The position numbers were made by a program, and so were the translations under genes. A stretch of DNA of 64,000 nucleotides, taken from assembly GCA_003989085.1 (NCBI GenBank), contig RXIV01000001.1:744001-808000 (forward strand), given 5' to 3'. Within the stretch, counting starts at the first letter, position 1. Every line of letters starts with the position of its first letter. The notes below the pieces were generated by a model that was not told where the DNA came from, made no database searches, and saw only the letters and a list, made by a program, of their open reading frames with translations. Shown one piece after another: positions 56,942 through 61,860 of the stretch. The DNA is from Candidatus Competibacteraceae bacterium. Its GTDB lineage: Bacteria > Pseudomonadota > Gammaproteobacteria > Competibacterales > Competibacteraceae.

Positions 56942-58501
56942 TTGAAAAACTACCCTCACCCTTGCCCTTCGCCCGCTGGCGGTCGGGGGGTTATCAATTT
57001 TAAAAGCCGTCATCCCCGCCTTGTCGATCTACTGATGCTCGCCGCCGGGGCGCTGTTGCCGCTGGCTTTTGCGCCCTTCGGCGATTGGCTGCTGGCGATT
57101 CTGCTGCCAGTGCTGTTGCTGTGGGGTTGGGATGGAGCGACGCCGGGCCGGGCCGCCAGACGCGGCGGACTGTTCGGACTGGGACTGTTCGGTTTTGGCA
57201 TCTACTGGATTTTCATCAGCCTGCACGACTACGGCAACGCACCAGTCCCATTCGCGGCGCTGGCCACTTTTGCCGTGGTGCTGTTGATGGCGCTGTATCC
57301 CGCTGTCACTGGTTGGCTGCTGGTGCGCTGGGGGCCGCCGCCAGGTCTGATCCGCTGGCTGCTGGTTTTCCCGGCGCTATGGACGCTGCTGGACTGGGTA
57401 CGAAGCTGGCTGTTCACCGGTTTCCCCTGGTTGGCGGTCGGCTACAGCCAGATTGAGTCGCCACTCGGCCAGATCGCCCCGTATCTGGGCGTTTTTGGCA
57501 TTGGTTGGGCGGTCATGGCGAGTGCTGGCCTGCTCTGGGCGCTGCTCAACTGCGCGGGCGGGCGGGATCGACTGACGTTACTGGGTCTGCTGACGATCCT
57601 GTGGCTCGGCGCGTGGAGTCTGGGAACGGTCAACTGGGTTGATCCGGTAGGGCCACCGCTCCGCATCGCCTTGATTCAAGGCAATATCGCCCAAGATCAG
57701 AAATGGCTGCCAACCACCCTTGATGATACCTTGTCCCGCTATGTCCAGCTCAGCCTGCCCGAACAGAGCCGCAGTGAGGTGATCATCTGGCCGGAAACCG
57801 CGATCCCGGTATTCTATGAAGATGTTCAGCCGTTCATCACGGCACTGGCCGCCAAGGCTCGTGAGGACCGGGTGGATTATGTGACCGGCATCCCGACCGG
57901 CTCGTGGGAAACTGGCATTTTCCACAACAGCGTCCTGAGTCTCGGCACGACCATCAATTTCTATCACAAGCGCCGGTTGTTGATTTTTGGCGAGTATCTG
58001 CCGTTGCGCTGGCTGTTCCAGTTTTTCCGCCACTGGGTGACCATTCCAATGGCCGATTTTATTCCCGGCCACCACGATCAACCCCTGTTACGGGCCGGCG
58101 GTCAACCAGTCGGCGTTTCCATCTGTTTTGAAGCCGTGTTTGGCGAGGACCTTCGCCTTGATCTGCCGGAAGCGACCTGGCTGATCAACGTCAGCAACGA
58201 CGCCTGGTTCAAGGACTCGACTGCCCCGCATCAGCATTTGCAGATTGCCCGGCTGCGGGCGCTGGAGCTGGGGCGGTTTATGGCCCGTGCGACCAATACC
58301 GGTATTTCCGCCCTGATTGACCCGCACGGCCGGATCGTCGCGCAGGGGCCGCAATTCCAGGCCGAGGCGATTCGCGGCGTGGTGCAGCCCTTGCGCGGCC
58401 TGACGCCATATGCCCGGTTTGGGGATTTGCCGACAGTGATTTTGATGGTAGCGTTATTAGCCTTCGGACTCTTTTTTGCTCGCCGTCCTGTCGCCCTATG
58501 A
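56942..58501 (+). CDS. lnt: Apolipoprotein N-acyltransferase
   Basis: Inner-membrane enzyme that adds the third acyl chain to lipoproteins. About six N-terminal TM segments precede a nitrilase-like domain with catalytic Glu in WPETAIPVFYED, Lys in HKRRLLIFGEYLPLR and Cys in GVSICFEAVFGED. The start is uncertain: TTG 56942 has no ribosome site, and the first 16 codons are translated C/G-rich repeat (KNYPHPCPSPAGGRG); ATG 57033 would begin inside the first TM helix. 519 residues from 56942. It overlaps the next gene by four bases. Confidence 0.92.
   Translation: MKNYPHPCPSPAGGRGVINFKSRHPRLVDLLMLAAGALLPLAFAPFGDWLLAILLPVLLLWGWDGATPGRAARRGGLFGLGLFGFGIYWIFISLHDYGNAPVPFAALATFAVVLLMALYPAVTGWLLVRWGPPPGLIRWLLVFPALWTLLDWVRSWLFTGFPWLAVGYSQIESPLGQIAPYLGVFGIGWAVMASAGLLWALLNCAGGRDRLTLLGLLTILWLGAWSLGTVNWVDPVGPPLRIALIQGNIAQDQKWLPTTLDDTLSRYVQLSLPEQSRSEVIIWPETAIPVFYEDVQPFITALAAKAREDRVDYVTGIPTGSWETGIFHNSVLSLGTTINFYHKRRLLIFGEYLPLRWLFQFFRHWVTIPMADFIPGHHDQPLLRAGGQPVGVSICFEAVFGEDLRLDLPEATWLINVSNDAWFKDSTAPHQHLQIARLRALELGRFMARATNTGISALIDPHGRIVAQGPQFQAEAIRGVVQPLRGLTPYARFGDLPTVILMVALLAFGLFFARRPVAL
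56953..56990. repeat. REP-like C/G-rich element at the lnt 5' end
   Basis: A run of CCCTCACCC followed by CGCCCGCTGGCGGTCGGGGGG with internal dyad symmetry. Translated in the lnt frame it gives the PHPCPSPAGGRG sequence typical of such repeats read through by a gene, so the true lnt start is probably downstream or was changed by the insertion. Confidence 0.5.
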
Positions 58502-59139
58502 CCGAATCCGCCGCGCCCTTGCCCGTCAGCAACGCCCAGAAATTCTGGGTGATAGCCGGTTTCTACGGCTTCTTGCTCATTTTGCCTCTGGTGTCCTGCA
58601 CCACCGCTCCACCGCGCAATGTTAATGACGCCTGCGCTATTTTCGCCGAGTATGACGACTGGTATCCCGACGCCAAGGCCGCCAGCCGGCGCTGGAACGT
58701 CCCGATTCCGGTAGTGCTGGCGATCATTCATCAGGAGTCGGCATTCCGGGCCGATGCCCAGCCGCCACGTCGCTGGTATCTCGGCTTCATTCCGGGGGCT
58801 CGCCCCTCCTCAGCCTATGGTTACAGCCAAGCGCTGGACGGCACTTGGGATCGCTATACCGCTGCGACGGGTAATCAGGGTGCAGACCGCGATGACTTTG
58901 ACGATGCGGTGGATTTCATCGGCTGGTATATCAACGAAACTACCCGGCGCACGGGCATCGCTCGCAGCGATGCCTACAACCAGTACCTGGCTTATCATGA
59001 AGGGCAGGAAGGTTTTGTCAGGGGAAGCTACTGGCGCAAGCCGTGGCTGATGGAGCGGGCGCGAAAGGTCCGCCGCCAGGCGGCCCGTTACAGTGCGCAA
59101 CTGGCCCGCTGCCCACCGCAACGCCTGGCCGGGAACTGA
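58498..59139 (+). CDS. Lytic transglycosylase (SLT domain) lipoprotein
   Basis: 213 residues. A hydrophobic N-terminal segment ends in a lipobox-like LVSC at about residue 34, then an SLT domain with catalytic Glu in IIHQESAFRADA, SAYGYSQALDGTWDRY and YHEG. It cuts murein between MurNAc and GlcNAc. ATG overlaps the lnt stop, so the two are coupled; this order, with Lnt acting on lipoproteins, fits an outer-membrane lipoprotein. Confidence 0.88.
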   Translation: MTESAAPLPVSNAQKFWVIAGFYGFLLILPLVSCTTAPPRNVNDACAIFAEYDDWYPDAKAASRRWNVPIPVVLAIIHQESAFRADAQPPRRWYLGFIPGARPSSAYGYSQALDGTWDRYTAATGNQGADRDDFDDAVDFIGWYINETTRRTGIARSDAYNQYLAYHEGQEGFVRGSYWRKPWLMERARKVRRQAARYSAQLARCPPQRLAGN

Positions 59140-59149
59140 AGCAGCGGGC

Positions 59150-59181
59150 AAAAAAAACCGCCAGCAAATCCAGCTAGCGGT
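59150..59181 (-). terminator. Strong intrinsic terminator on the minus strand
   Basis: On the minus strand ACCGCTAGC and GCTGGCGGT pair with one G-U around a 7-base loop and are followed by seven or eight T (A-run 59150-59157 on plus). The plus-strand lytic transglycosylase stop is 10 bp away and gains no T-run from it, so it serves a minus-strand transcript. Confidence 0.75.
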
Positions 59182-59300
59182 CAAGACAAGAATTATTGAG
59201 CTTGAAACCCACCTTTACTGTGGAAATCAGCTCAAGCGGAGGCTAGTAGAAAGTAATCCAGCCCTTGGGTAAATCAGGACTATCAGCAATCCAGCCAAGG
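59150..59300 (-). ncRNA. Candidate small RNA
   Basis: Just upstream (minus strand) of the terminator lies a nested hairpin: TTGAGCT (59235-59229) with AGCTCAA (59202-59196) enclosing CCAC/GTGG. A hairpin, a short AT-rich single-stranded linker and a terminator, with no open frame, is a typical sRNA layout. The 5' end is a guess; only a weak promoter-like TTTACC-N17-TCTACT is visible near 59245-59275. Not matched to any known RNA family. Confidence 0.4.
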
Positions 59301-59620
59301 TTTACGCTTAGGCGCTGCGGGTTAAAAGACGAGACCCGCCGGGCGCGTTCAGCGTTCAGCCCTCACCATCGATCCGGTAGCCATACCCCTGTTCGGTCAG
59401 GCGTGTGGTCAATGGTTGCCCAATCGACGCGCCGCCAGATCTATTGTTCCCAGGCGCTTGCGGCTCGACCGCCCGGAAGAGACTGCGCCTTGTGGTATTG
59501 ACTGTTTCTGCTATTTACGACGATGGCCTGACTTTTGCTAAATCCCGCTGATTACGCTATTCATGGTTCTCGGCGTGGCGTGGTCATCCCCGTGAAACGA
59601 ATACAGACTGGATGACCATA

Positions 59621-59654: not shown

Positions 59655-59758
59655 GTTTCATTGCGCCCGATAACCCCGTTATCCTTAGTACCCGTAATCA
59701 CTGTATGGCTACTGAGTTTCTCTCCATCGCCGTCATCGGCGCATCCAGGACCTAATGT

Positions 59759-59971
59759 ATGGAAGATCCCAATCTGCTACTTGTTTGTCTTAATGCCTTC
59801 GTCGCGGTGCTGGGCCTGCTGACGGTGCTCGCTGGCGCAATCCGGGGATTGATCGAGCTGTTCCCTGAACGACCGCCCAAGACAGATACCGTTGTTGCCG
59901 TCGCCATCGCCGCTGCGGTCAACACCATCGCCCCTGGCGCCTGCGTCACTCGCATTGAAGAAATCCGTTAA
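59759..59971 (+). CDS. oadG: OadG-like small subunit of a sodium-pumping decarboxylase
   Basis: 70 residues. One TM helix (LLVCLNAFVAVLGLLTVLAGAI) is followed by a charged/Pro-rich cytosolic tail (ELFPERPPKT, AVAIAAAVNTIAPG). This is the layout of OadG/gamma subunits that hold alpha and beta subunits together. AGGA precedes ATG 59759; oadA follows 29 bp later. The sequence is short and divergent, so assignment leans on position. Confidence 0.8.
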   Translation: MEDPNLLLVCLNAFVAVLGLLTVLAGAIRGLIELFPERPPKTDTVVAVAIAAAVNTIAPGACVTRIEEIR

Positions 59972-60000
59972 GCCACAGCCATCCTAACCCTGGAGTTATC

Positions 60001-61860
60001 ATGATTTTTGCCCAAACTGACAAGAAAATCCGTGTGATGCTGACCGCCTTCCGCGACGGCCTGCAAAGCGTATTCGGCGGCAAGGTCCGCGTCGGCGATA
60101 TTTTGCCGGCCATGCAGGCCGCAGCCGGGATGGGCGTGCGGCATTTCGAGTTTGGTGGCGGGGCCCGTTATCAAGCGCCTTATTTCTACGCGGGCGAAGA
60201 CCCCTTTGCATGCATGGACCAGATGCGCGATGCGGTTGGACCAGGCGCTGATCTGCAAATCCTGACCCGCTCGGTCTCCGGCGTCACCCTGACTACCCAG
60301 CAGCTCAAGGCGCTGGAAATGCAGGCGCGGTTGATGAAGAAGCACGGTACCACGATTGACCGCAATTTCGACTTCATGAACGACGTGGACAACCTGGTCA
60401 AGACCGGCCAGCCGATCGTAGACGCCGGGATGCACCATCAGGTCTGCGTGGCAATGATGGGGCTGCCCTATCTGTCGGATCGGGTGCATACCCCGGAGTT
60501 CTATATCCGCGTAGTGGAAAAACTGCTTGCTTCGGGCATCCATTTTGATTCGGTGTGCATGAAGGACGCCTCCGGCACCACTGACCCGCATACTTGCTAT
60601 GAAACAGCCAAGGGTCTGAAAAAAATCCTGCCGCCGGAAATTCCGCTGTCGATGCACACCCACGACACTGCGTCGATGGCGGTGGCCTGCTACATGGCGG
60701 GCATTGCCGGCGGAGTAGACAGCGTCGATCTATCCGTGCGGCCTATGGCGTCCGGTACCTCTCAACCGGATGTGCGCTCGATGTGGCACGCCCTCAAGGG
60801 CACTGGTTACTCGCTGGATATTGACGCCAGCAAGATGGGCGAACTGGAAAAACTGCTCGACGAGGCGCTTAAGGAGTACGACTTCAACCCGGTGACCACC
60901 ACTGCCGACGCCCGAGTGGTCAACTTCCCGATGCCGGGCGGCGCGATTGGCCCCAACGTCCACATGATGGCCGAAGCCGGCATTCTCAATCGTTACAGCG
61001 AAGTACTGGCTGAATTCCCCGAAGTAGTGCGGGCCGGTGGGGCTTGGACCAGCGTGACGCCGGGCAGTCAGCAGTATTGGCTGCAAGCCTTCAACAACGT
61101 ACTGCATGGCCGCTGGAAGAAGATCGACGCCGGTTATGGCCGGGCGGTGCTGGGCTACTTTGGCCGCACCCCGGAAGCGCCGGATCCGGAAGTCATCAAG
61201 ATAGCCGCTGAGCAGTTGAAGCTGGAACCTTTCACCGGCGATCCGTTGGAAAAAGCCCCGGATAGCCTGGTTATCGCCGAAGCAGCGCTGAGCGAACGGA
61301 TGTTGCCGTTGACCGAGGAGAATATCTTTCTGGTGGCTTCCGCTATCGTTCCTGGCAAGAACATGGAGTTGAATGAAGGTATCCGCCTGTTGACCGGCAA
61401 GGCGCGGATCAACCTGCCGCTGAAAGCGAAGGGCCAGCCGGCGGAGATCGCTCCAGTCGTCACGGTTCCAGCCGCGCCGGCGACCTTCACCGGCCCGGTC
61501 ACGACCCAATGCACCGTGGTTGAGGGCGGGGTGACCCGCAATTTCCGCATCACCATCGAAGCGCCCGCCGGGACGAGCGCCGGTGTTGCCGTCGCGCCCG
61601 CAGTTGGAACAGTGGCGCCGGCTCCAGCGACCGGCCAGCGTACTCCGGTGTTCTCGCCGTTCGAGGGCAAGGTGGAACTGGTCGAAATCAGCGTCAAGAC
61701 TGGCGATGCAGTACAACAGGGTCAGGTGGTCGCGGCGGTGGAAGCAATGAAAGCCAAGCACGATGTGCGAGCGCCCTGCGCTGGCCTCGTGGTGGAAATC
61801 CATGCCAGTCTGGGCAGTGAGGTTTCCGCCAGCAAGCCTATCCTGACCATTGGCGGGTAA
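60001..61860 (+). CDS. oadA: Biotin-dependent decarboxylase alpha subunit, OadA-like (divergent)
   Basis: 619 residues. The carboxyltransferase domain (1-~460) keeps the metal-site pattern: Asp in TAFRDGLQS, Lys in CMKDASGTTDP and His-x-His in SMHTHDT. Motifs around substrate binding are unusual: GGGARYQAPYFYAGEDPF replaces the common GGATFDxxxRFL block and no RGxNxxGY is seen. A Pro/Ala-rich linker leads to a C-terminal biotinyl domain with K584 in VEAMKAKHDV. It transfers CO2 from a keto acid to biotin. Oxaloacetate is the default guess; another substrate is possible. Confidence 0.9.
   Translation: MIFAQTDKKIRVMLTAFRDGLQSVFGGKVRVGDILPAMQAAAGMGVRHFEFGGGARYQAPYFYAGEDPFACMDQMRDAVGPGADLQILTRSVSGVTLTTQQLKALEMQARLMKKHGTTIDRNFDFMNDVDNLVKTGQPIVDAGMHHQVCVAMMGLPYLSDRVHTPEFYIRVVEKLLASGIHFDSVCMKDASGTTDPHTCYETAKGLKKILPPEIPLSMHTHDTASMAVACYMAGIAGGVDSVDLSVRPMASGTSQPDVRSMWHALKGTGYSLDIDASKMGELEKLLDEALKEYDFNPVTTTADARVVNFPMPGGAIGPNVHMMAEAGILNRYSEVLAEFPEVVRAGGAWTSVTPGSQQYWLQAFNNVLHGRWKKIDAGYGRAVLGYFGRTPEAPDPEVIKIAAEQLKLEPFTGDPLEKAPDSLVIAEAALSERMLPLTEENIFLVASAIVPGKNMELNEGIRLLTGKARINLPLKAKGQPAEIAPVVTVPAAPATFTGPVTTQCTVVEGGVTRNFRITIEAPAGTSAGVAVAPAVGTVAPAPATGQRTPVFSPFEGKVELVEISVKTGDAVQQGQVVAAVEAMKAKHDVRAPCAGLVVEIHASLGSEVSASKPILTIGG

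Follow-up and report, generated by a model that had tools for sequence, protein, structure and literature searches.

A conserved intergenic locus of Candidatus Competibacteraceae as a candidate gene for a trans-acting small RNA

Described small RNAs of similar layout

Trans-encoded, Hfq-dependent small RNAs (sRNAs) of Gammaproteobacteria typically end in an intrinsic terminator with a U run of at least six, a feature shared by a locus in the window (the whole 64,000-nt stretch of a Candidatus Competibacteraceae genome analysed here). Like these sRNAs, the locus is intergenic, has a predicted promoter of its own, and would specify an RNA of ~90 nt with a 5' stem-loop, a linker, and a U-tailed terminator. 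It differs in being restricted to one family in the genomes searched and in being known from sequence alone. The U tail is of the kind bound by Hfq in known sRNAs. A second recognised class comprises sRNAs derived from mRNA 3' ends, such as SdhX. The locus resembles this class because it usually lies downstream of a same-strand gene, whose terminator it would share, but it has its own conserved predicted promoter and persists where the upstream gene is missing. The best reading is that the candidate is a previously unlisted sRNA gene of a well-known kind, the trans-acting and probably Hfq-assisted sRNAs.

At the Rfam gathering threshold, no family was found for the sRNA in the window or at the loci of five relatives, in keeping with the original prediction of a possibly new sRNA; the sole window hit was a distant tRNA. 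The best sub-threshold match is Hrs13 of Erwinia amylovora (RF02631; E 0.008 in a 701-bp search), whose layout and terminator are similar. The score of 21.4 bits is far under the gathering score of 52, and membership was rejected. Hrs13 is reported to be conserved in Erwinia but not in other Enterobacteriaceae, and to lie beside ansP (PMC4070566). SdsR/RyeB (RF00111) also shares a stem and U-tailed terminator with the sRNA, but the match is at chance level (19.6 of 38 bits, E 0.74) and was likewise discarded. Ca. Competibacteraceae are largely uncultured, glycogen-accumulating wastewater bacteria, and no described sRNA was found among the literature matches listed for Competibacter, Competibacteraceae, or glycogen accumulating organisms. 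The sRNA could be added to Rfam.

Locus and parts of the candidate gene

The gene-free gap that holds the locus measures 619 bp, from the stop of a transglycosylase gene (58498-59139, Pfam SLT_4) to an ORF start at 59759, close to the ~620 bp first noted. On the minus strand, the terminator stem GACCGCTAGC / GCTGGCGGTT (59182-59156) has 10 pairs, six of them G-C, and a 7-nt loop, and its eight T's occupy 59157-59150. The arms TTGAGCT (59235-59229) and AGCTCAA (59202-59196) precede it, as had been described. The minus-strand ORFs to the right (59752-59955 and 59968-60663) overlap plus-strand ORFs; thus, no upstream minus-strand gene requires the terminator, which was also the original view. For the 116-nt minus strand the folding energy is -35.4 kcal/mol, whereas shuffles average -26.9 +/- 3.4 (z -2.47), and 2 of 200 of them fold as well. 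A simple scan found six terminators versus 2.8 +/- 2.0 expected, which is weak taken alone. The locus exceeds chance because it is conserved, with matches at E < 1e-4 in 27 of 59 genomes, its own included.

Table 1. Predicted parts of the inferred sRNA gene, in window coordinates
Feature	Position	Strand	Mean pairwise identity	Basis or remark
Upstream conserved box, likely regulator site	59299..59310	-	80%	~61-72 bases before inferred start; predicted
-35 element TTTACC	59268..59273	-	99%	
-10 element TCTACT (family TTNACT)	59245..59250	-	71%	17 bp after -35
Inferred sRNA, ~89 nt	59150..59238	-		Start inferred from -10; covariance model match
5' hairpin region	59196..59235	-	79%	Several mutually exclusive registers (folds, covariation tests)
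Linker, candidate pairing region	59183..59195	-	87%	Single-stranded in predictions
Intrinsic terminator, 10-bp stem and eight T's	59150..59182	-	92%	Stem nearly invariant in 26 sequences

In the family alignment of 26 sequences, the upstream part consists of the box TARGTANAAACC(M)TGATT, a near-invariant GATTTACC, a variable 17-bp spacer, and TTNACT. The transcript part runs from CGCTTRAGC...TTTAAGCTC through the linker AATATCCTGTACTTTGACC to the terminator CCGCCAGCCGGATTTGCTGGCGG with 6-8 T's. The window copy has diverged from the linker consensus, and its box reads TAAGCGTAAACC, followed by a diverged part, where the family consensus is TARGTANAAACCMTGATT. Covariance model R1 matches the window at 59151-59247 (G000:C1:803151-803247) with 85.2 bits. 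No ORF is apparent in the RNA in the 26-sequence alignment and loci, where a common GTG runs straight into TTT TAA. Alignments A1 and A2 omit a remnant in genome G002 (L027) and two spurious matches (L028 and L029); in the model alignment, A3, L027 is retained and L039 is a further member.

Conservation outside the transcript points to a promoter. Mean pairwise identity is 29% just upstream of the box, whose value in Table 1 refers to alignment columns 30-47, and 50% in the spacer. The resulting high-low-high succession at the -35, spacer, and -10 has the shape of a promoter, and the conservation pattern is that expected if the sRNA has its own sigma70-like promoter in the intergenic region. 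The -10 of the window is a weak match to consensus, and a promoter scan of the window did not list the sRNA promoter. A box with at most one mismatch stands at 24 of the 27 sRNA promoters; that of the window, degenerate with ~5 mismatches by eye, is not among them.

No part of the transcript is more conserved than the terminator, which faces a convergent transglycosylase gene in 16 of 27 loci, as would be seen if it were a bare conserved terminator between convergent genes and its RNA had no function. Such a terminator needs neither the conserved 5' hairpin and linker nor the conserved -35, however, and the window has no upstream minus-strand gene, which makes this explanation very unlikely. 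The terminator loop also carries a GGA kept in 25 of 26 aligned sequences (the exception is L023), and the RNA might therefore bind a protein, for example as a minor CsrA/RsmA ligand, rather than pair with other RNAs. Known CsrA sponges bear several GGA-type sites, whereas here one site lies in the loop and the whole terminator is frozen without the loop being singled out. A protein-binding RNA of this type is the most improbable of the readings considered.

The sequence features argue instead for an independent small regulatory RNA gene with a sigma70-like promoter and its own terminator, most likely acting in trans (probability roughly 0.78). RNA polymerase would start near 59238 at the sigma70-like promoter TTTACC-17-TCTACT, a step in which a regulator bound to the box ~65 bases upstream would probably assist, and the terminator would end transcription at 59150. 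In the ~89-nt product, the 5' hairpin would be followed by a linker that is mostly single-stranded and then by the U-tailed terminator. Hfq would probably bind the U tail and assist the sRNA, and the linker would most likely pair with mRNAs in trans. A promoter of its own, a structured 5' part, an unpaired linker, and a terminator with a U tail jointly fit a trans-acting, probably Hfq-assisted base-pairing RNA.

The fold of the 5' hairpin is less uniform, since several overlapping pairings reuse the same arms. Single-sequence folds are divided between registers, and the minimum-energy fold in the window is TTGAGCT/AGCTCAA. As a conserved fold this register is not favoured: 15 of the 25 distinct sequences disrupt the central G-C pair, and no double change restores it. 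Two overlapping registers, GCUURA/UUUAAGC and CGCUU..AAGCG, appear to do better. In the former, three pairs are changed on both sides, which 1 of 500 shuffles reaches. The latter, with an inner GCUG/CAGC, has two covarying pairs in a plain alignment (89 of 500 shuffles) and three in an alignment fitted to that register (11 of 500). Covariation in the 5' stem is modest, and the nearly invariant terminator stem provides no covariation evidence. The original prediction had staked a structured minus-strand small RNA with its own terminator on conservation of both stems in relatives. The stems are conserved, which supports such an RNA; this holds for the terminator stem and the 5' hairpin region, but not for the exact TTGAGCT/AGCTCAA register.

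Distribution and gene neighbourhood

All 27 genomes matched by the 206-base minus-strand query belong to Ca. Competibacteraceae. Many of the matches start around query position 63-68 and most end at ~195-205, that is, from ~59283 to the T run. Across 39 genomes of the family, model R1 detects 27 full copies (E <= 3.7e-13) and the G002 remnant (E 0.004). No R1 match was found in G001, G003, G006, G008, G009, G011, G012, G016, G019, G036, and G403, a set that includes several incomplete genomes, or in the sister-family genome G037. The own genome has one match at E <= 0.001, and each positive family genome has a single R1 match, which is not the pattern of a dispersed, REP-like repeat.

Beyond the family, 4 of 369 class-sampled genomes match R1 at E <= 0.05, namely the own genome and three weak matches (L031-L033). 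The latter were rejected as homologs outside the family, as they have neither linker nor promoter and resemble unrelated terminators or chance. With its strict filters and only 11 candidates scored in each genome, this search may have overlooked distant relatives. The exact terminator pattern, sought in one genome each of 84,980 species, matched 23 stretches once each, and 19 of them carry the name Competibacteraceae, Competibacter, or Contendobacter in their titles. The remaining four are titled 'Phycisphaerales', 'Synechococcaceae', and, in two cases, as generic proteobacterial MAGs; these public contigs probably correspond to the family contigs G029:C60, G034:C119, G020:C213, and G013:C27. 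On present evidence, the sRNA thus appears restricted to Ca. Competibacteraceae within the genomes searched. The titles Phycisphaerales (L060) and Synechococcaceae (L069) look wrong, their contigs probably being those of the Competibacteraceae genomes G029 and G034.

At 24 of the 27 full loci, the RNA is preceded on its own strand by a DUF1451 zinc-ribbon gene, at a distance of 56-86 bp, and once 161 bp, from the model start. Its assignment to PF07295 was tested on the L008 copy, and other copies were recognised by sequence motif. This usual neighbour raises the alternative that no separate gene exists and that the DUF1451 mRNA has the RNA as its 3' untranslated region and terminator, from which a 3'-derived sRNA might be processed. 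The G002 remnant, where the 3' half directly follows a TusA-like ORF, also favours this alternative. However, a conserved -35/-10 pattern and a conserved box separate the DUF1451 stop from the RNA, and the unit is retained without the upstream gene. Three loci lack it: L020, at a contig edge, and those of G005 and the window genome. In the window genome, DUF1451 lies at G000:C1:243528, ~560 kb from the sRNA, and the promoter and RNA are kept with a degenerate box. In G005 (62% complete), no DUF1451 match was found, and box, promoter, and RNA are all kept (L024). The persistence of promoter and RNA in these two genomes indicates that the unit is independent of DUF1451. An origin from mRNA 3' ends without an own promoter was rejected on these grounds, and the DUF1451 alternative as a whole is unlikely; the DUF1451 mRNA may be a second source of the RNA.

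At L024, the nearest upstream gene is phosphatidyltransferase-like (by eye) and is located beyond DUF1451 in several relatives; the arrangement looks as if DUF1451 had been deleted and the sRNA retained. The convergent loci downstream include L016, where the transglycosylase gene overlaps the T run by one base.

With the promoter kept even without the usual neighbour and the RNA present in 27 of 39 genomes, the stand-alone sRNA is a clear candidate for a family regulator. It is missing or halved in relatives within the genus of the window. DUF1451 and the transglycosylase gene nearly abut in G001 (L101, ~1000) and G003 (L102, ~900), with ~27 and ~36 nt between their matches and no sRNA. The layout in these two genomes resembles the outcome of a deletion of the sRNA gene from between its neighbours. 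In G002 (L027, 1055-1140, minus strand), only the linker and terminator are left; the TusA-like ORF (named by eye) occupies the expected position of the promoter and 5' hairpin, and the 3' half of the sRNA forms the 3' tail of this ORF. Because two of three same-genus genomes lack the sRNA, it is dispensable. Relatives with intact, half, and missing copies offer a natural comparison for the loss of an sRNA gene or its conversion to a 3' tail.

Hfq, candidate pairing, and the shared upstream box

The host encodes Hfq (G000:C2:346492-346668, E 7.3e-29), and an hfq gene occurs in 36 of the 39 genomes of the family, its own included. The original prediction had the sRNA perhaps acting near lnt, the transglycosylase gene, or oad. 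When duplexes with 49 gene starts of the window were crudely ranked, from crude gene calls and ignoring accessibility, these came 30th, 44th, and 28th, and 11 of the 27 loci have no transglycosylase gene as their downstream neighbour. Action in cis on these genes was consequently discarded for its low pairing rank. The linker 15-mer, with at most two mismatches, has 3 to 12 matches per genome in 14 genomes, counting the sRNA itself. Among 20 non-self matches inspected, the recurring ones lie within open frames, and several of them look, by eye, to be antisense to coding genes. The pattern TACAGGATA-N(1-10)-ATG gave seven matches in 6 of the 14 genomes, and the same gene never recurs (by eye). 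Overall, these limited pattern and duplex searches found no conserved mRNA target.

The upstream box is shared with other genes. A search of the 39 family genomes for TARGTANAAACCMTGAT with at most one mismatch gives 39 matches, and the reversed-pattern control gives one. Of the 39, 24 stand at sRNA promoters and 15 at other sites. Seven of these other matches, each in a different genome and one of them in that of the window, lie 172-238 bp upstream of the same conserved gene for a protein of ~89 aa (G000:C1:191308-191324 [L117], L118, L119, L120, L121, L123, and L128). The copy of this protein that was tested matches no NCBIfam family, and its best Pfam match (E 0.048) falls short of the cut-off. 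Pairing of the sRNA with the 5' region of this second box-bearing gene does not rise above shuffles (z -0.46 to 1.47, seven genomes). The occurrence of one box at sRNA promoters and other genes suggests a common regulator acting through it.

A broader proposal, which we regard as doubtful, is that the sRNA is the post-transcriptional arm of a Competibacteraceae-specific regulon. Its putative regulator would bind TARGKANAAACCMTGAT boxes before the sRNA and the ~89-aa gene and might be tied to the storage-polymer lifestyle, and the sRNA arm would be undergoing dismantling in the genus of the window. The dismantling rests on the two genus genomes without the sRNA, the one with its 3' half as the tail of the TusA-like gene, and the mostly lost box of the window.

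Two further boxes, L125 (G006) and L126 (G009), adjoin an ETF-ubiquinone-oxidoreductase-like gene (by eye), and the sRNA was not found in either of these genomes. In the window genome, the box before the ~89-aa gene (L117) extends to a palindrome, AAACCATGAT-TTA-ATCATGGTTT.
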